This document shows positions 5,822 through 41,835 of a DNA stretch of 61,456 nt, one piece after another. The translations under genes were made by a program, and so were the position numbers. Position 1 is the stretch's first letter. Each line of letters begins with the position of its first letter. The notes beneath the pieces were generated by a model, which saw nothing but the letters and a program-made list of their open reading frames with translations, was not told where the DNA came from and did not search any database. The stretch is from a virus. The stretch spans positions 1-61,456 of the IMG/VR virus record IMGVR_UViG_3300042987_001904. The stretch is one strand, 5' to 3'.

Positions 5822-6526
5822 ATGAAGAAATTAGTATTGTTGGTAATGTCACTGTTTGCTGCATTGTCAGTCGCACGTGCCGCAGATATTGCAAACCTCT
5901 CTTTGGAGGGTGGTTACAATAACTATTATGTTGTCAATGGTGTTGCTTACGCACAAGATCTCCCATACGCAAGTATTGGAGCATTGAAGTCATTCAAGTA
6001 TGCTGATGTATATGTTGGTGGCACATTGTTGGCAAATGGTAACCAAGATCAATCTCACTGGTTGGTAGGTGCTGGAAAGAACCTATATACTTGGAATCAA
6101 TTCACTGCTCGTCTAGACGGCAGTGTTATTCGTCACCAAACTGGTGGTAGCATTCTAGGTAATTCTACCGAAACTGGTGTAAAGTTGGCTCTACAAAACC
6201 CATGGGTAACTCCATATGTTCGTGGCGCTTTCAACTTTGAGTTGCACCAGAATGCTTACTTTGTTGGTGCAGAACGTGCTCAAAAACTACCATTTGGTTT
6301 GGTTTTGACACCTGCTGTCGAATGGGGTAAGTCAACTAGTTATGAAGCTTTTAACGCTAAGGCTTCTTTGACTCGTCCAGTAACTTTTGCTTGGGGTTCT
6401 GTAACTCCATTTGCTGAAGTTGGATGGTTCCATAATGGAACATTTGAAGCTGCATCAAGAGCATTTGCTGTCAATCGTTTTGATAATGATGTAGTTTACA
6501 GTGCTGGTTTGAAGTTGACCTTCTAA
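5822..6526 (+). CDS. Outer-membrane beta-barrel protein with signal peptide
   Basis: A 234-residue protein. Residues 1-20 form a Sec signal peptide (MKK, a hydrophobic core, then SVARA|AD). The rest is alternating aromatic/small beta strands with Gly/Asn turns. It ends in GLKLTF, the terminal-Phe signature that directs barrels to the Bam machinery. It most resembles small porin-like or OmpW-size proteins, though I cannot name the family. AGAAGG upstream of the ATG is a good Shine-Dalgarno site, unlike most genes here. A terminator follows. It is probably exported to the host outer membrane during infection, possibly to mask receptors or change permeability (inference). Confidence 0.8.
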   Translation: MKKLVLLVMSLFAALSVARAADIANLSLEGGYNNYYVVNGVAYAQDLPYASIGALKSFKYADVYVGGTLLANGNQDQSHWLVGAGKNLYTWNQFTARLDGSVIRHQTGGSILGNSTETGVKLALQNPWVTPYVRGAFNFELHQNAYFVGAERAQKLPFGLVLTPAVEWGKSTSYEAFNAKASLTRPVTFAWGSVTPFAEVGWFHNGTFEAASRAFAVNRFDNDVVYSAGLKLTF

Positions 6527-6595: not shown

Positions 6596-6624
6596 TTGAA
6601 TTTCAATTTAAAACACTATATATT
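6596..6624 (+). promoter_or_regulatory. Sigma70-type promoter for a candidate small RNA
   Basis: TTGAAT, 17 bases, TATATT. It lies between the terminator at 6554 and a hairpin-rich stretch without a coding gene. Confidence 0.5.
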
Positions 6625-6630
6625 AGTAGA

Positions 6631-6757
6631 AATATGATTTTATCATCACAACCTAGTCTAGTAAGTCAAGCCCCATCGGGGTATTGATGACGAGGTTGTT
6701 TGCTTCTAAAAGATTCAACCCGTCATCCAAAAAAGATGATGGGTTTTTGATTTTAGG
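6631..6757 (+). ncRNA. Candidate small RNA or attenuator with alternative hairpins
   Basis: No convincing ORF lies here. The transcript from the 6596 promoter would hold a CCCC/GGGG mini-hairpin (6671-6681) and a stem pairing 6689-6698 (GACGAGGTTG) with 6716-6724 (CAACCCGTC). It also holds an intrinsic terminator pairing 6717-6727 with 6735-6745. The last two share 6717-6724 and cannot form together, which is the layout of an attenuator or riboswitch expression platform. Its ligand or target is unknown. Confidence 0.5.
6717..6748 (+). terminator. Rho-independent terminator of the candidate sRNA
   Basis: An 11-pair stem (AACCCGTCATC with GATGATGGGTT, one G-T pair), a CAAAAAA loop and five T. 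Its left arm also pairs with an upstream stretch. Confidence 0.85.
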
Positions 6758-6759
6758 CG

Positions 6760-6787
6760 TTGACAATAAGAAAAGGTGTGGTATAGT
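6760..6787 (+). promoter_or_regulatory. Sigma70-type promoter of the tRNA cluster
   Basis: TTGACA, 16 bases, TATAGT, just downstream of a terminator and upstream of seven tRNAs. This suggests host polymerase transcribes the cluster early. Confidence 0.8.
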
Positions 6788-6793
6788 GATTAT

Positions 6794-6905
6794 ATGTTCG
6801 GGGTTGAAACTCTATCTGGTGTCCCCAACGAAAGTTAAAACACTTGATCGGTCTGAGGGTGATATGCTCGGCGCAGAACCCGACTGGCGATAACTGGATT
6901 AAGAA
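6794..6905 (+). ncRNA. Structured leader of the tRNA operon (uncertain)
   Basis: This roughly 110-base stretch between the promoter and tRNA-Val is clearly more GC-rich than its surroundings. Possible helices are GGGG (6800-6803) with CCCC (6823-6826), and GTC..GGGT (6851-6860) with ACCCGAC (6878-6884). It is not a tRNA. It may be a processed leader or an unknown small RNA. Confidence 0.35.
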
Positions 6906-6922
6906 AATAATAATTTTTAAAT

Positions 6923-6997
6923 GGGCGGGTAGCTCAGTGGTAGAGCACCACGTTTACACCGTGATTGTCGGAGGTTCGATCCCTTTCCCGCCTACCA
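6923..6997 (+). tRNA. tRNA-Val (TAC)
   Basis: Acceptor GGGCGGG/CCCGCCT with a terminal G-T pair. The anticodon loop TTTACAC gives TAC. The T-arm is GGAGG TTCGATC CCTTT, with an encoded CCA. Confidence 0.88.
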
Positions 6998-7006
6998 TTT
7001 TAATAT

Positions 7007-7084
7007 CGGAGTGTAGCTCAGCTTGGCTAGAGCGCTTGCTTTGGGAGCAAGATGTCGTAGGTTCAAATCCTATCACTCCGACCA
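7007..7084 (+). tRNA. tRNA-Pro (TGG), canonical copy
   Basis: Acceptor CGGAGTG/CACTCCG, anticodon arm CTTGC-TTTGGGA-GCAAG giving TGG, T-loop TTCAAAT, encoded CCA. A second tRNA with the same anticodon and odd loops lies at 8626. Confidence 0.92.
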
Positions 7085-7089
7085 ATTTC

Positions 7090-7173
7090 GGGCGTATGGT
7101 GAAATGGCAGACACGCGAGTCTTAGAAGCTCGTGGAGAAATCCGTGGGGGTTCAAGTCCCTCTATGCCCACCA
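7090..7173 (+). tRNA. tRNA-Leu (TAG)
   Basis: Acceptor GGGCGTA/TATGCCC, anticodon loop CTTAGAA giving TAG, a long variable arm as expected for leucine, T-loop TTCAAGT and encoded CCA. Confidence 0.92.
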
Positions 7174-7272
7174 AATTAAAAAGTGACTTTAAAATCATAT
7201 TTGGTCGTATGATCATTGAGTGTAATTGACCTTTCGGGTGTAGTCACACATACCCAGTTTTTAATTCCTTAT

Positions 7273-7362
7273 GGAAGGGTGGCTGAGTGGTCTAAGGCGG
7301 TGGTCTTGAAAACCGCAGGGGTGTAAAAGCCTCCGGGGGTTCGAATCCCTCTCCTTCCTCCA
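7273..7362 (+). tRNA. tRNA-Ser (TGA)
   Basis: Acceptor GGAAGGG/TCCTTCC, anticodon loop CTTGAAA giving TGA, long variable arm, T-loop TTCGAAT, encoded CCA. The 99 bases before it hold only a weak hairpin and nothing else recognisable. Confidence 0.92.
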
Positions 7363-7369
7363 ATTTTAC

Positions 7370-7461
7370 GGAAAGGTGTCTGAGTGGTCTAAAGAGACAG
7401 TTTGCTAAACTGTTGTGGGCTTAAACACCCACCGAGGGTTCGAATCCCTCCCTTTCCGCCA
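7370..7461 (+). tRNA. tRNA-Ser (GCT)
   Basis: Acceptor GGAAAGG/CCTTTCC, anticodon arm ACAGT-TTGCTAA-ACTGT giving GCT, long variable arm, T-loop TTCGAAT, discriminator G, CCA. Confidence 0.92.
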
Positions 7462-7469
7462 TTTTATAT

Positions 7470-7545
<76 letters not shown>

Positions 7546-7553
7546 ATTTTAAC

Positions 7554-7627
7554 GCGGGTGTGATGTAACGGTAGCCTACATCCTTGCCAAGGACGATGAG
7601 AGGGTTCGATTCCCTCCACCCGCTCCA
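7554..7627 (+). tRNA. tRNA-Gly (GCC)
   Basis: Acceptor GCGGGTG/CACCCGC, anticodon loop TTGCCAA giving GCC, T-arm GAGGG TTCGATT CCCTC, discriminator T, CCA. Confidence 0.93.
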
Positions 7628-7635
7628 ATTTATTT

Positions 7636-8319
7636 ATGAAAGTAGCAATATGTTTTAGTGGAAAATTTAGAAACAATTACAAACGAAGTTTTGAGTCATT
7701 GAAACGCAATTACTTAGACAAGTATGATTGTGATATTTATTTTCATTCATGGTCTGATCCACAACAAGAAGATGTAATAAACTTATATCGACCAGCTAAT
7801 TATAAAATTGACGATCAAATTGAATTTGACGAAAGAGGATTGAAATGTAATATTTGGTCTAATACATCTATTCATAATAGTTTATCCCAATATTATTCAC
7901 TTAGACAATCTTTTTTGGTTGTTAAAAAATCTAACAATTATGATTTTGTAATTAGAACACGGTTTGATTTAAATCATGATAATCTTGTATACGATCTAAA
8001 TAGTTTAGATAAAAACGTTATAAATTTACCAAAGTGGTCAACATGTGTTGATCCAAGAGTATGTCATAGAGGATACTGTGATGTGTTTGCCGTGGGTAAT
8101 ATAAACAACATGGAAGTATACAGTAAAATATTTTCAAATTACATATACTACATATTTGCTGACATGGAATATAGAAATTATTTACGTGGACCAAATTGGC
8201 CTGGTCAAGATTCACCACTTAGAAATGAATATGTTGTTAAATGGCATTTAAATAAAAATAAAATTCCAGTTAACGAAATGGATCTGACAACCACGACACT
8301 TAAAACAATTATTCGTTAA
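7636..8319 (+). CDS. Glycosyltransferase-like protein (surface polysaccharide type)
   Basis: A 227-residue protein starting MKVAICFSGKFRN, the opening of a nucleotide-sugar-binding fold. It has an internal DIYFHSW strand, a YSLRQSF helix and FVIRTRFDL, where Arg-x-Arg-x-Asp is a hallmark of GT-A enzymes seen in phage and capsule loci (family knowledge). It is soluble, with no membrane segment. It sits inside the tRNA island, nine bases after tRNA-Gly, without a ribosome site. It probably modifies a surface glycan or a virion protein; donor and acceptor are unknown. Confidence 0.65.
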   Translation: MKVAICFSGKFRNNYKRSFESLKRNYLDKYDCDIYFHSWSDPQQEDVINLYRPANYKIDDQIEFDERGLKCNIWSNTSIHNSLSQYYSLRQSFLVVKKSNNYDFVIRTRFDLNHDNLVYDLNSLDKNVINLPKWSTCVDPRVCHRGYCDVFAVGNINNMEVYSKIFSNYIYYIFADMEYRNYLRGPNWPGQDSPLRNEYVVKWHLNKNKIPVNEMDLTTTTLKTIIR

Positions 8320-8331
8320 TAATTTTTCAAC

Positions 8332-8385
8332 TGGAAATTTGTGGTAATGTAGGAAACTTTGAATCTTCTTGTAAGACCGATCAAT
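8332..8385 (+). pseudogene. tRNA-Gln (TTG) relic
   Basis: Bases 8356-8373 are identical to the 18 bases covering the anticodon arm of the intact tRNA-Gln at 8545-8618. Flanks such as CTGG..ATTTG and the spaced T-arm remnant also align, but acceptor and T-stem are destroyed. This is a decayed tandem copy, separated from the intact one by the tiny ORF at 8407. Confidence 0.7.
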
Positions 8386-8406
8386 TTTTTAATATAAAGG
8401 AATATT

Positions 8407-8535
8407 ATGGGATTTAAAAGAGTAAAAGCACATAGCAGAAAAGGTCATAATAGAACAATTAAGACCAAGACAGGAACAAAGACAGTCAGAGTGAAGGCTT
8501 CTAAAACCGTTCACTCTAAGAGAAAGAAAAAATAA
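8407..8535 (+). CDS. 42-residue highly basic protein
   Basis: ATG 8407 to TAA 8535, with AAAGG nine bases upstream. The product has about 18 Lys/Arg, several Thr and His, no acidic residues and ends KRKKK. Such composition suggests RNA or ribosome binding, or nucleic-acid condensation (inference). It lies between the tRNA-Gln relic and the intact tRNA-Gln, and a second tiny basic ORF lies at 9824. I do not recognise a family. Confidence 0.6.
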   Translation: MGFKRVKAHSRKGHNRTIKTKTGTKTVRVKASKTVHSKRKKK

Positions 8536-8544
8536 GTTTATAAC

Positions 8545-8618
8545 TGGGGATTTGCATAATGGTAGTGCGGAAGACTTTGAATCTTCTTGTAGGGGTTCGA
8601 TTCCCTTATCCCCTGCCA
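8545..8618 (+). tRNA. tRNA-Gln (TTG)
   Basis: Anticodon arm GAAGA-CTTTGAA-TCTTC gives TTG. The T-arm is AGGGG TTCGATT CCCTT, and the acceptor is GGGGAT/ATCCCC with an unpaired first position, plus G and CCA. Its anticodon region is duplicated at 8356-8373. Confidence 0.88.
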
Positions 8619-8625
8619 ATTTATT

Positions 8626-8701
8626 CGGGATGTAATGTCAAAAGTAGACGGCCTGTTTTGGAGACAGGAGGTTGAGATTGCGAAATTCTCCATCCCGACC
8701 A
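8626..8701 (+). tRNA. tRNA-Pro (TGG), second copy with aberrant loops
   Basis: The acceptor CGGGATG/CATCCCG is perfect and the anticodon arm CCTGT-TTTGGAG-ACAGG gives TGG, with encoded CCA. However, the D-loop (AAAAGTA) lacks the GG pair and the T-loop (TGCGAAA) lacks T55, so the usual elbow contact is lost. It may be a degenerating copy or a specialised tRNA. Confidence 0.75.
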
Positions 8702-8931
8702 TTTTGATTGTTAGTGTATAGAATTATAGCACGATACCCGTAGGAGGGTATAGGAGACTGACGTTGACGAGAGAGACATTTGGAACGCTTAGTGAAATCC
8801 TCGTATATTCGCAAGTCACGGTCATCCAATTTATAAATCTTGTGGTGGTTTAGCCACGGCGTGAGGGACACGATACACCCCTGTATGTCTGACCCGGACG
8901 AATCTGTTCCAGATAGGATAGGGTTGATTTT
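8702..8931 (+). ncRNA. Candidate structured RNA of unknown class
   Basis: This 230-base stretch has no convincing ORF and is GC-richer than the genes around it. Visible helices are 8734-8739 with 8746-8751 (ATACCC/GGGTAT) and 8759-8768 with 8815-8824 (two TGAC/GTCA blocks flanking a 2x2 loop). Others are 8842-8846 with 8853-8857, and 8873-8877 with 8882-8886 (ATACA-CCCC-TGTAT). It lies between tRNA-Pro and the methyltransferase gene. It matches no riboswitch, RNase P or intron core that I can recall. Confidence 0.4.
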
Positions 8932-9675
8932 ATGAGTATTTATACTGAATTAAATTATCGTCTATACAGAGATGAAACTCCATATTCAAATTGTGAAGTA
9001 GAAAAGTATATAGACAACAATTATCCACATACAAATATTGATTCAACACTTTTAGATTGTTTGTTCGAGCATTTTAAACCAAATTTTGTATTGGAGATTG
9101 GTTCGATGGTTGGCAATAGTTGTATAAAGATGTTGGAGTCATTTAAGACAGTAGAGTTAAATGATTCGTATGTAGTTTGTATAGACCCATTTACAGGTGA
9201 TGTAAACATGTGGGATTTGGAATATACTTTACAAGATTGGTATAGATTTCTGAGATTAGAAAATGGCATACCAACCATATATAAAAGATTTTTGGCAAAT
9301 ACATACCAATATAGAGATAAAATTGTTCCTATTAACTGCACGGCATTCACCGGAATAAATCTTTTGGAGAGATTGTATAATACACATAAATCAATTTCTT
9401 CATTACCCACTTTAATTTATTTAGATAGTTCTCATTGTAAGAATGAAACATTTCTTGAAATTGTAGAATGTTGGGATAAATTGTTAGGACCAAACACTTT
9501 GTTGTTTGGAGATGATTTTTCTCACCCAGATGTTACGCACGATGTTCTTCGAGCAGCCAAAACATTTACACTTAATTTAACTTTGAGAGATCAAATAAAA
9601 GACAAATTGGCGCCAATATCATTTCTAAAGGAAGATGTGTTGGTATATAATAATCAGTGGATGTTATTTAAATAA
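8932..9675 (+). CDS. Class I SAM-dependent methyltransferase (Methyltransf_24-like)
   Basis: A 247-residue protein. Motif I is FVLEIGSMVGNSC (residues about 52-64), binding S-adenosylmethionine. The acidic ribose-binding end is VVCIDPFTGD, and motif IV is LIYLDSSHCKNETFLE followed by LLFGDDFSHPDV. The layout fits the family found in glycan and O-methylation loci, which often accompanies glycosyltransferases. It starts at ATG 8932 after a structured leader, without a Shine-Dalgarno site. A sugar substrate is likely because a glycosyltransferase lies nearby at 7636, but this is inference. Confidence 0.75.
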   Translation: MSIYTELNYRLYRDETPYSNCEVEKYIDNNYPHTNIDSTLLDCLFEHFKPNFVLEIGSMVGNSCIKMLESFKTVELNDSYVVCIDPFTGDVNMWDLEYTLQDWYRFLRLENGIPTIYKRFLANTYQYRDKIVPINCTAFTGINLLERLYNTHKSISSLPTLIYLDSSHCKNETFLEIVECWDKLLGPNTLLFGDDFSHPDVTHDVLRAAKTFTLNLTLRDQIKDKLAPISFLKEDVLVYNNQWMLFK

Positions 9676-9709
9676 ATTTTGATCATTGATATATTAGTCT
9701 TGACCATTC

Positions 9710-9716
9710 TATTTAT
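9710..9716 (+). promoter_or_regulatory. TATTTAT box before tRNA-Gly (TCC)
   Basis: TATTTATTATTG in the 63-base gap between the methyltransferase and tRNA-Gly, 22 bases before the mature tRNA end. It may add late expression of this tRNA and the tmRNA. Confidence 0.35.
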
Positions 9717-9738
9717 TATTGTAGACTATAAACAATAC

Positions 9739-9812
9739 GCGGGTATGATGTAATGGTAGCCTGAGGCTCTTCCAAAGCCTACGTGTGAGTTCGATTCTCA
9801 CTACCCGCTCCA
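9739..9812 (+). tRNA. tRNA-Gly (TCC)
   Basis: Acceptor GCGGGTA/TACCCGC, anticodon arm AGGCT-CTTCCAA-AGCCT giving TCC, T-loop TTCGATT, CCA. Together with the GCC tRNA at 7554 it covers GGN codons well. Confidence 0.93.
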
Positions 9813-9928: not shown

Positions 9929-10313
9929 GGGCGTGTTCAGGTTTCGATTTAAGAAATGTGTCCATGTCAGTCACGCAGAGGATGATAGTTGGCCTCTTTA
10001 AATGTCTATCAAAACATAACTGCTGAAGAAAACGTAGTTAGCTATGACTTCTCTTATGATGATGTCGTAGCAATTGCAGCCTAATAAAAGGTTGCTCGTT
10101 TGTTTAATGATTGTTCGATAGTTAAACAAACGTCATCATCGGACTATGGTTGGTTGATTGATTTGCTCTTCCAATCGAAATTTATGTAAATCTTAAGAAG
10201 TAAATTTTTGACAATTTTGATTTTACTTTCTAACAAATTCAAATTGTAAAAGCGTGTAGTCTGGTATGGTTCAATTCTTAAAGACGCGAGTTCGATTCTC
10301 GCCACGTCCACCA
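9929..10313 (+). ncRNA. ssrA: tmRNA (transfer-messenger RNA)
   Basis: The 5' end GGGCGTG pairs with the 3' end CACGTCC, followed by A and CCA. The hallmark 5' segment TTCAGGTTTCGATTT and the T-arm GCGAG TTCGATT CTCGC are present. The internal reading frame runs from about 10016 to TAA-TAA at 10082-10087. It encodes a tag of about 20-22 residues ending VVAIAA, like the ALAA degron of bacterial tags but about twice as long. tmRNA frees stalled ribosomes and marks the product for proteolysis. Phage copies are uncommon. It probably works with host SmpB, since no SmpB gene is seen here. Confidence 0.95.
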
Positions 10314-38232: not shown

Positions 38233-40005
38233 ATGATTAAATTTTTTAGAAATCAAGATATAATCGTAACTCCATTTACTATTGCTAAACCTCAAGTAGC
38301 AAATAGTATTTTTCCAGATTTGATTATAGCAAATATTGGTGAAGAAGAATATCCATTATTACTTCCAACTAACCAATGTAGTGATAATTTGTCAGGTAGT
38401 TGTTTGCCAGTTCAAACTGTAGATGGATATCTGTCTACTAGTGAATTTGATTCTCCTATAAATTTTCAACTTGGTGTTTTTGTTACATCAAGTGTAGTGT
38501 TTTATCCTTCTGGAAGTAGTGATTATAATCCAGTTACAAATCCATTAAATCTAGATGGAACATATCAACGTCAAGTTTATAATACAATTAAAAACATGTA
38601 TTATAATAACTACAACAATGCATATAACATGTTTGGTATAAATGGTTATGATGCATCGATGATGACCAGTAGTTTGACTAATGATATATCTGTATTAAAT
38701 TTTACCATACCACAAGCAGGTGATCAAATTAGACCAAATAGTGTCGTGTTTACCAATCAAAGTGGAGACATTGTTGCGGATCTAATTGATGATGGAAATT
38801 ATAATTTAATATTGTCAGGAACATATTTTATAAACAAATATTCTTTTGAAGCTTCAACCACAGATTTGACTATTCCAATTGATATTTGTGGTCTTGGTTC
38901 ATATTTTATAAATCCTAATGAAGATGGAAAATGTTGTGATATCGAACCTACACCTACTCCTACTCCCATTCCGCCTACTCCAACACCTACATCTACTCCA
39001 ACTCCAACACCTACTCCAACATTAACACCGACGCCTACTCCTACGGTAACTCCTACACCTACACCAAGCCCAACTCCAACCAACACACCAATTGGTCCAA
39101 CGCCTACTCCAACGCCAACGCCTACAGTAACCCCAACTCCTACTCCTACAATCACACCTACGCCTACTCCTACCCCAACGGTAACACCAACTCCTACGCC
39201 AACCGACACTCCAACACCTACACCTACAACTGCACCGGATGAGCCTACTCCAACGCCTACGCCAACTGCAACGGCAACCCCAACGCCAACACCAACTCCA
39301 AGCCCGACTCCAACGGACACTCCAACACCAACTCCAAGCCCGACTCCAACGGACACTCCAACACCTACTCCTACAGCTACAGATACCCCAACGCCAACAC
39401 CTACAATTACCCCTACACCAACAACTCCAGAAAATTTATTTTATGCTAAGATTTACTTTGTTCCACCAAGTTCTTGTTCGTTTGAACCACCTTGTTGTGA
39501 TCCAATAACAGATCCGGGTTGTGAGAGTTGTCCAGACTGTTGCACTCAAGCTCAACAAGAAGCTGGCAATTGTGATTACTGTGGCGGAAGTGGAATCGCA
39601 AGCCCAGATGTAGTTGTTAATGAAATTCCTGCCGATGCAAATGGCAATACATTTAATGAAGAAGGTCTCGGAACTACATTTGAATGTGCCGTGAATGATC
39701 CACATGGTGGTCCTACAGGTTTTACAAACCGTCAATATTTATGCACCATATCTTGGGGTGGTGGAACTCCATCATCGTTCCCAGACTATGAATCTGGTAG
39801 TGATATCGCTATATCATTTACCGGCACATATAATAGACTGGGTGTAGATTTGTGTTGTGGTAATTTAATGCAATTTTCATCACCATTTGATTATACATCT
39901 TTAACCACCGCGTTAAGTAGATATGCGGAGGTCAGTCCATTTGTATCTGGTGTAGTAAGTGGATCGGGAACTCAATCTGATCCATGGTTGGTAGTATTAA
40001 GTTAA
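38233..40005 (+). CDS. Pro/Thr-repeat stalk protein with Cys-rich head
   Basis: A 590-residue protein. Residues 1-235 are a folded N-terminal domain, probably the attachment part ([20 protein letters not shown]). Residues about 238-398 are a Pro-Thr stalk with Asp, Ser and Ala substitutions. Residues 405-470 are Cys-rich ([20 protein letters not shown], then CCTQ..., CDYCGG), suggesting disulfides or a metal site. The end is a beta domain. This layout (anchor, mucin-like rod, compact head) fits a tail adhesin. It pairs with the next gene, also Pro/Thr-rich, and both precede a glycosyltransferase operon that might modify the Thr residues. Confidence 0.75.
38946..39428 (+). repeat. Pro-Thr coding repeat region
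   Basis: About 480 bases of near-periodic CCN-ACN codons. A 36-base unit ([12 protein letters not shown]) occurs twice in tandem at 39295-39360. Synonymous codons are varied in the rest, so the DNA is less repetitive than the protein. Confidence 0.85.
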
Positions 40006-40026: not shown

Positions 40027-41835
40027 ATGATAACAGACTTATATTCTTATATTTTATACAAATCTAATTTAATACATTGGCTATATAGTATATCTGAGAG
40101 TGACAAGTTTCTTTCAACCACAGCGCTAAAATTGATATCAGACTTAAATAATAATATTTTATCGACCACGCCTGCTTATGATTTGTTGTTTAAAAAATAT
40201 AAATTTAAAGTGTCATTACAAAGTGTAGGTAATGGTCAAACTTTAAGTTTTGTATTGTATCAGTATAATCCTAGTAAGAATAGTTTTACTTTTGTCGGCG
40301 TAATAAAAAATGTAACCGTCTGTGCATGTAATTCAGAAGATTTGCCAACTCCTACACCTTCTCCTACACCAACACCAACACCTACATCAACTTCCACACC
40401 TACTCCTACACCTACTCCGGGTCCAACAGATACTCCTACGCCAACCCCAACACCTGGCCCAACAGATACTCCAACGCCAACCCCAACACCTGGCCCAACA
40501 GATACTCCAACGCCAACCCCAACACCTGGCCCAACAGATACTCCTACGCCTACACCTACTCCGGGTCCAACAGATACTCCAACACCAACTCCAACGCCTG
40601 GCCCAGTAGAACCTACTCCAACACCTACACCTACAAACACTCCAGCTCCAACAGACACACCTACACCTACCCCAACTGTTGGCCCTACACCTACGCCAAC
40701 TCCAACAAACACGCCTGCTCCTACAGCTACACCTACTCCTACCCCAACAATAACAAATACACCTACACCATCTCCTACTGCGACCCCAACTCCAACACCT
40801 ACACCTGATCCTGGCATTCAACTATTTATGGTAGGTGGCGGTGGTGCGGGTGGTGACAAAATAAACAGCGTCGTTGCTAGTGAACCAGCAATGGGTGGCG
40901 GTGGATCGGGTGCTTATGTATTAACAAATACCTTTATACCTGTTGCTGGTGTATCATATAACTTTGTTGTTGGTAGTGGTGGCGACTTTACCGGTTCAGT
41001 AATGGCCAATAGAAATGGTCAAACCACTATGTTTGCTGATACCTATTATGCCGGCGGCGGTGGAGGTGGCGCAAGTTATATCAACGGCGTAGCTCTTGCT
41101 GCTGGTGATGGTGTATATGGCGGTGGCGGTGGCGGCGGCGGTGTCGCACCCGATGGAACTCTTATAGCAGCAGGTAACGGCGACGGATCTGGTGGATCTG
41201 GTGGTGTTGGCGTTGAAGCTGTTGATTATAGAGTTGGTGGATCTGGTGGTGGATATAATTCTAATGGAGCTAGTGGACAACTTGTATCAGGTCCTTCAGC
41301 ACAAGGTGGTAATGGAACAGCTGTTATGACTGCTGGAGAAGTTCCAACTTGGTTTGATATCTATGTTAGCACGCTTATAGCCGATGCTATTGCGGGAAGC
41401 GGTGGCGGCAATGCTGTAGAAAAAACTGGCGCTGTTAGTTCGATTCGTTCGACCGCGCCCGGATACGGCCGTGGCGCCGCTGATGCTTACGGATCTGATG
41501 GTCGTGGAATAGATGGCGGTATGCCTACATCTGCTGGTGAAAACTGGGGTGCTGGTAATGGTGGTGGTGCTGGATGGGGCCCTTATACAAGCGGATTTGG
41601 TGGAGACGGATTTATTGCCTATATATATCCAAATACATGGTCTACTCCAGTTGTAACATATACTGGAAATGGTAATGTCAATTGGTTCAACTATTCAATA
41701 ATAAATGCTACCCCATATAAAATACTATACATATACATTACGAGTAGGTCTACTAATGTTCAGGTCAACGGCCGTGGATGGAGTGATGGTATGAAAACAT
41801 ATTCTGGAACTGTAAGGTGGGATACTGTAGTTTAA
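40027..41835 (+). CDS. Pro/Thr-repeat stalk protein with glycine-rich adhesin head
   Basis: A 602-residue protein. Residues 1-100 form a helical/beta anchor. About 106-261 is a Pro-Thr stalk including five 12-residue units ([12 protein letters not shown]). From 265 to about 510 it is a glycine-rich domain ([30 protein letters not shown]), like the glycine-rich tips of phage adhesins, where poly-Gly helices display variable loops (family knowledge). The last 90 residues are a small beta domain. It is the last gene before the glycosyltransferase operon. A receptor-binding role is a reasonable inference. Confidence 0.78.
40417..40596 (+). repeat. Five tandem 36-base units in the Pro-Thr stalk
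   Basis: Each unit encodes [12 protein letters not shown]. Units 2 and 3 (40453-40488 and 40489-40524) are identical in DNA; the others differ only at synonymous sites. Gain or loss of a unit keeps the frame, so stalk length can vary. Confidence 0.9.

Follow-up and report, generated by a model that had tools for sequence, protein, structure and literature searches.

Leader-peptide attenuation is an old class of mechanism, and the purpose of phage tRNAs has been debated for decades, with codon compensation set against the replacement of destroyed host tRNAs. In attenuators of the trp/his type, a short leader ORF carries the regulatory codons, region 1 lies in the ORF and region 2 near its stop, and the alternative pairings 1:2, 2:3 and 3:4 determine whether an intrinsic terminator forms before the operon (PMC1183508). 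In T-box riboswitches, too, a tRNA-related signal chooses between terminator and antiterminator, although there the RNA itself recognizes uncharged tRNA, with no ribosome involved. Large phages such as T4 and T5 carry tRNA clusters together with extra stable RNAs. Phage-encoded tRNAs have been proposed, from anticodon-loop mutations, to replace depleted host tRNAs as a counter-defence (PMC10264068); regulation is not addressed in that study, in which "leader", "attenuat" and "promoter" have 0 occurrences, whereas we propose here a sensor for the loss of host tRNAs.

The locus described below shares the features listed above for trp/his-type attenuators, the choice between terminator and antiterminator of T-box riboswitches and the tRNA-cluster setting of T4 and T5. 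It lies in a 61-kb virus record (the window, by which we mean the whole stretch of DNA analyzed) of a water-borne, contractile-tailed phage with genes for a tail sheath, a baseplate wedge, an SbcCD-like nuclease and a primase. The baseplate protein has distant matches (38-40% identity) in Microcystis phage Mel-JY01, Flavobacterium phage immuto and the 484-kb huge phage LR756508. A tRNA/tmRNA operon is preceded by two putative promoters, and the element under study is the sequence between them (6625-6759). The other tRNA cluster of the phage (cluster 1) is cut off in the window, where its last two tRNAs, Gln (CTG) and Cys, are left at 14-170. The features are as follows:

6596-6624, plus strand: putative promoter P1, TTGAAT-17-TATATT (-35 box TTGAAT at 6596-6601, -10 box TATATT at 6619-6624)
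6634-6687, plus strand: leader-peptide ORF of 17 codons, MILSSQPSLVSQAPSGY and stop, conserved as an ORF in more than 30 contigs
6648-6658, plus strand: region 1, ACAACCTAGTC, within the ORF, pairing with region 2 to form the protector hairpin
6686-6698, plus strand: region 2, GATGACGAGGTTG, beginning inside the TGA stop, with region 1 or region 3 as partner
6716-6727, plus strand: region 3, CAACCCGTCATC, which provides the terminator's left arm and has as partner either region 2 (antiterminator) or region 4
6735-6748, plus strand: region 4, GATGATGGGTT and T run, completing the intrinsic terminator as its right arm
6760-6787, plus strand: putative second promoter P2, TTGACA-16-TATAGT, past the terminator and ahead of the tRNA operon
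6793-6905, plus strand: second conserved leader RNA of the tRNA operon, conserved in relatives, without an Rfam family
6923-9812, plus strand: tRNA operon, Val(TAC) Pro(TGG) Leu(TAG) Ser(TGA) Ser(GCT) Ala(TGC) Gly(GCC) Gln(TTG) Gly(TCC), with protein genes interspersed
9929-10313, plus strand: tmRNA gene, with which the RNA genes of the operon region end

The first-pass annotation had described this place as a promoter, 100 bases without an ORF and a terminator. A promoter-like site is indeed present at 6596-6624, but it has 9/12 consensus matches, a quality of match near chance level. The 100 bases are not empty: they hold the 17-codon ORF at 6634-6687, conserved in more than 30 relatives, which would be the short ORF expected in the leader transcript of a leader-peptide attenuator. 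RNA starting from P1 is predicted to begin at about 6631-6633, and the leader ATG follows the -10 box by 9 bases, making the ORF near-leaderless. Its stop, TGA at 6685-6687, provides the first bases of region 2.

We collected relatives in two steps, starting from the neighbouring outer-membrane protein as query and continuing with the conserved operon leader, and obtained more than 30 viral contigs that retain the ORF, the antiterminator, the terminator and the tRNA operon; the ORF is kept in every relative that bears the element. Nearly all contigs reaching far enough show the same order of promoter, short ORF, antiterminator, terminator, second promoter(s) and tRNA genes, and nearly all relatives have TATATATT or a similar box 5-9 bases upstream of the leader ATG. 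Leaders of the window type (A2) include MNLISQPSQASQLPSGS, MISQSQPSQASQLPSGS, MRNSLQPSLSVAGQPSLT, MKNSLQSSLLVLAGQPSLT, MKNQSVQSSVVAGQSSPALLPSLS and MNLLSVQSVVASGQPSPSALPSAC. Where it is visible, the other tRNA cluster has an attenuator copy of its own (A1), first seen in L014 with the leader MKVHYTNINCWNTFTNYRGVTADIV; further A1 leaders are MKVKYTHIKRWNTFTNCEDRGMAADIV, MNNYYTDNIKWHTFTNCKCGVGDIV and MQVVCKHDIKRDWYNTTFTRKGGR. Named phages contained no DNA related to the window element and chance short matches only to the cluster-1 element, and bacterial genome contigs gave no match for the conserved operon leader. In one relative (G002), a GOLLD RNA (Rfam RF02032, 207.8 bits) lies between the two tRNA clusters, at L019 6378-6845.

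In these comparisons, the leader ORF is under coding constraint. Of the single-base codon changes, 51% are synonymous over the first 17 codons in cluster-1 leaders, against 20% expected, and 43% in cluster-2 leaders, against 23% expected; these figures are to be read with the relatedness of the compared sequences, which inflates covariation, composition and other counts alike. Such constraint on an ORF that ends at its own terminator would also suit a micropeptide gene whose peptide is the product and whose alternative helices are incidental, as would L093 and L096, where the leader forms the in-frame C-terminal end of a longer ORF. In these two contigs P1 is gone, and frame, stop and hairpins are kept. 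The peptide itself, however, differs between subgroups (MNLISQPSQASQLPSGS, MKNQSVQSSVVAGQSSPALLPSLS, MKNSLQSSLLVLAGQPSLT), whereas the type of residue, the hairpins and the tRNA surroundings are conserved, and we consider a micropeptide gene improbable.

The mutually exclusive hairpins proposed from the sequence of the window proved real, with terminator, antiterminator and protector all beyond chance. The intrinsic terminator was confirmed at 6717-6745 followed by a T run (-15 kcal/mol, z -6.1 against shuffles). Its left arm (6717-6727) can also pair upstream with 6686-6698, in agreement with the pairing to 6689-6698 noted at first, and the antiterminator at 6689-6724 reaches -13 kcal/mol (z -3.8). 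The protector hairpin, at 6648-6698, reaches -22 kcal/mol (z -4.4). For the whole leader, z is about -5.2 to -5.4, with 0/200 shuffles equally good. Protector 1:2, antiterminator 2:3 and terminator 3:4 exclude one another as in a leader-peptide attenuator, and because the ORF overlaps region 1 and ends at the start of region 2, the three pairings have the geometry of a trp-type attenuator. In A1, a long protector hairpin takes its 5' arm directly from the sensor codons and its other arm from region 2.

Across relatives, the pairing of region 2 with region 3 has energies from -12.6 to -25 kcal/mol and is better than shuffled (z -1.1 to -7.1). It is kept by joint change of both arms: GATGACG/CGTCATC in the window corresponds to GAGTGA/TCACTC in G011, GATTGG/CCAATC in G020, AGACCGATGGTT/AACCGTTGGTCT in G002 and TGGCGGTTGAT/ATCAACCGCCA in the A1 copy of G019. 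Covariation, which had been suggested as a check, is found in the terminators of both families, A1 and A2 (for the terminator of the window, 5 pairs changed on both sides, 0/500 shuffles), and in the A1 antiterminator helix, but a count over MAFFT columns for the A2 2:3 helix is not beyond the control, because this helix shifts register between subgroups. For that helix we therefore used a partner-permutation test, in which permuted partners beat a leader's own region 2/3 partners in 0/20000 permutations for A2, and in 33/20000 for A1. The attenuator architecture read from the window alone is thus well supported by an antiterminator and a terminator that are conserved and covary in relatives.

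Rfam searches returned no match for a known sRNA or for a metabolite riboswitch, and the alignments contain no conserved unpaired core. No T-box riboswitch was found either, neither Stem I specifier loop nor T-box bulge matching the Rfam model at the gathering threshold or at E<=10. A terminated RNA would measure about 115 bases, and a short RNA with mutually exclusive helices could be a ligand-binding riboswitch or an independent trans-acting sRNA. What is conserved, however, is an ORF and helices that change sequence together, in place of an unpaired core, and Rfam gives no match even at E<=1, weaker matches being at chance level. We regard this explanation as very improbable, and the riboswitch of the first-pass annotation is set aside in particular, as the conserved leader ORF explains the switch where no aptamer core is found; an independent sRNA is not required to account for the locus.

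We then modelled the effect of a ribosome by folding the transcript up to the terminator loop, at equilibrium, with the ribosome set at each codon. In this constrained folding, stalls on the sensor codons leave region 3 sequestered with probabilities of mostly 0.6-1.0, and a ribosome at the stop with mostly 0-0.3; the turning point is where the matching codons end. Geometry and model together suggest that a ribosome at the stop codon would mask region 2 and that one at the control codons would not. Equilibrium folding often forms the antiterminator without a ribosome as well, and in many relatives the sequestration of region 3 is not beyond shuffles.

The codons of the leader were compared with the tRNA genes that follow. 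tRNAs were called by ARAGORN at a lowered threshold, at which some calls are doubtful and some Ser tRNAs are missed, and key loci were also examined with the Rfam tRNA model; the tRNAs defined the residue classes, independently of the leaders. Cluster 1 encodes tRNAs for Thr, His, Arg, Glu, Trp, Asn, Tyr, Phe, Lys, Asp, Ile and Cys, and cluster 2 for Val, Pro, Leu, Ala, Ser, Gly and Gln. Leaders consist mostly of the residues of their own cluster, A2 of Val/Pro/Leu/Ser/Ala/Gly/Gln and A1 of the cluster-1 set, so that the regulatory codons are cognate to what the operon supplies. In the window, 14 of the 16 leader codons after the ATG belong to isotypes of the downstream tRNAs. One cluster-1 leader covers 12/12 isotypes in 19 codons, and in G017 the operon's own anticodons read 22/23 leader codons. 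A 303-kb relative has four Leu tRNAs (TAA, CAA, TAG, GAG) and a leader with five Leu codons of four kinds; in G020, cluster 1 shows no Arg or Glu tRNA, and the leader has neither residue. A1 leaders end in codons that form region 2, and most of these fall outside the cluster-1 residue set.

The match could be a coincidence, the leaders serving as ribosome-loading sites at which translation, not codon identity, controls termination. By constrained folding, any translated ORF across region 1 would switch similarly, and G020 and others have a few unmatched codons. Against this, the two leaders split complementarily between the clusters in every contig showing both, and Fisher tests of this split give p 9e-4 to 3e-7 for each of the 14 contigs listed with the pair. 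Read in the +1 or +2 frame, the leader DNA shows no such fit to the tRNA clusters, and random peptides drawn at phage composition equal the match and coverage of the leaders with p 8e-4 to <2.5e-6. With these frame controls and random-peptide tests, coincidence appears an unlikely explanation.

Taken together, the conserved ORF, the three alternative helices with their co-evolution, the match between leaders and tRNAs and the synteny point to a transcription attenuator under ribosome control that governs how far the phage tRNA operon is expressed, a reading to which we assign a probability of about 0.82; from these sequence features we infer leader translation, stalling, read-through and tRNA shortage as the signal. 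RNA polymerase would initiate at P1, and a ribosome would load on the near-leaderless ATG and read the leader codons, nearly all of which would require tRNAs of kinds encoded downstream. Should any such charged tRNA be scarce, the ribosome would stall in the ORF, covering region 1 and freeing region 2; free region 2 would pair with region 3, no terminator would form, and transcription would continue into the tRNA/tmRNA operon. A ribosome that gets to the stop codon would instead allow termination. More phage tRNAs would in this way be made when ribosomes run short of them. In relatives the element always precedes a tRNA operon, and the earlier suggestion that it may gate read-through into that operon is well supported.

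Since the second cluster has its own codon-matched attenuator, the two leaders together would monitor nearly the whole tRNA pool. We think it fairly likely that the two complementary leaders divide the genetic code between them, polling nearly every charged tRNA and turning on the matching operon when any fails, for example after the action of a host anticodon nuclease. The same attenuator could respond to amino-acid starvation through charging, or to a general slowdown of translation, in place of tRNA loss: a stalled ribosome cannot distinguish an uncharged from a missing tRNA, and classical attenuators respond to amino acids (PMC1183508). Here, however, the output is tRNA and not biosynthesis, the leader codons follow the tRNA content of each cluster and not one amino acid, and a leader that spends just a codon or two on each of 7-12 isotypes would be a poor sensor of any single amino acid. 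Starvation or slowdown as the signal is therefore possible but doubtful in our view.

Compared with trp/his-type attenuators, the proposed tRNA-operon attenuator would control phage tRNA genes and not biosynthetic enzymes, and its regulatory codons are for 7-12 amino acids and not for one; it further differs in the near-leaderless ORF, the two complementary attenuators per genome and the second promoter after the terminator. The open-licence papers searched contained no account of leader-peptide attenuation acting on a tRNA operon, nor of a many-codon leader, a near-leaderless start or a complementary attenuator pair in one phage. The mechanism is thus a known one, with apparently a new target, the tRNA operon, and a new multi-codon design. 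If true, this would be, as far as our searches show, the first tRNA operon under leader-peptide attenuation and the first multi-amino-acid leader of such breadth, and a ready-made biosensor for tRNA shortage. The attenuator agrees with the proposed role of phage tRNAs as replacements for host tRNAs lost in infection (PMC10264068) and adds a testable sensor to that proposal. A sensor coupling tRNA-gene expression to stalling at cognate codons would speak for replacement and open that view to direct tests.

As annotated at first, another promoter follows right after the terminator: P2 (6760-6787) is a strong promoter-like site with 11/12 consensus matches and a TG extension, and it is kept in relatives. 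Because P2 lies directly 3' of the terminator, the tRNA operon is probably never fully off, and the attenuator would just add to the supply from P2. Between the terminator and the first tRNA of the window there is no further terminator-like site.

The second conserved leader RNA lies directly upstream of the tRNAs in both clusters (window 6793-6905; L014 5860-6000; L022 11665-11835), with the pattern GGGG-TTGAAACTCTATCTG-GTGTCCCC ... TTGATCGGTC ... AGAACC. Its loop GUGU could pair with ACAC in cluster 2, and UUGA with UCAA in cluster 1, which suggests a pseudoknot kept by joint change of loop and partner; its minimum free energy alone is not beyond shuffles. In G009, G013 and G023, it is replaced by a different structured-looking sequence, AACAACATCAACAGTCTTTAGAAAGTTTGAACTGAG...GGTAC, between P2 and tRNA-Val (L046 at about 1080-1190; L050 and L058 at the same place).

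Finally, we scanned 0.7 Mb on both strands, blind, for a terminator, an antiterminator and an ORF in this arrangement, and found nine distinct places, four of them before tRNA operons. In the window, the sole intergenic match is the element before the tRNA operon; matches at 6435 and 54602 were dismissed as out of frame and inside the outer-membrane-protein and tail-sheath genes. The same scan found no such attenuator in the tRNA regions of T4 and T5. One of the four places before tRNA operons is in the 484-kb huge phage LR756508, with the ORF MSRFHTLPLINILNANLALANNNPISLSGSSALDA:

L110 6398-6559 (LR756508 480397-480558): candidate, independent-looking attenuator with regions GAGCCGA / GGCAGTTCGGCTC / AGCCGAGCTGCC

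Two small ORFs follow, then tRNA-Leu and tRNA-Asn, and Leu and Asn make up 14/34 leader residues after the Met. The shared layout may point to a design that is old or has evolved more than once. The device had no relatives among the viral contigs and phages searched, and so it stays a single-sequence lead.

Within the tRNA operon of the window, two long non-coding, structured-looking stretches among the tRNA genes (8700-8930 and 7176-7270) have no Rfam match and are perhaps, by analogy, further stable RNAs like those of the T4/T5 tRNA clusters. The sequence at 8330-8395 resembles a decayed copy of the tRNA-Gln(TTG) gene, of which the intact gene is at 8545-8618. Elsewhere in the window, large proteins with long Pro-Thr repeats (PTPTPT) are encoded at 239-1180, 38233-40005 and 40027-41835.
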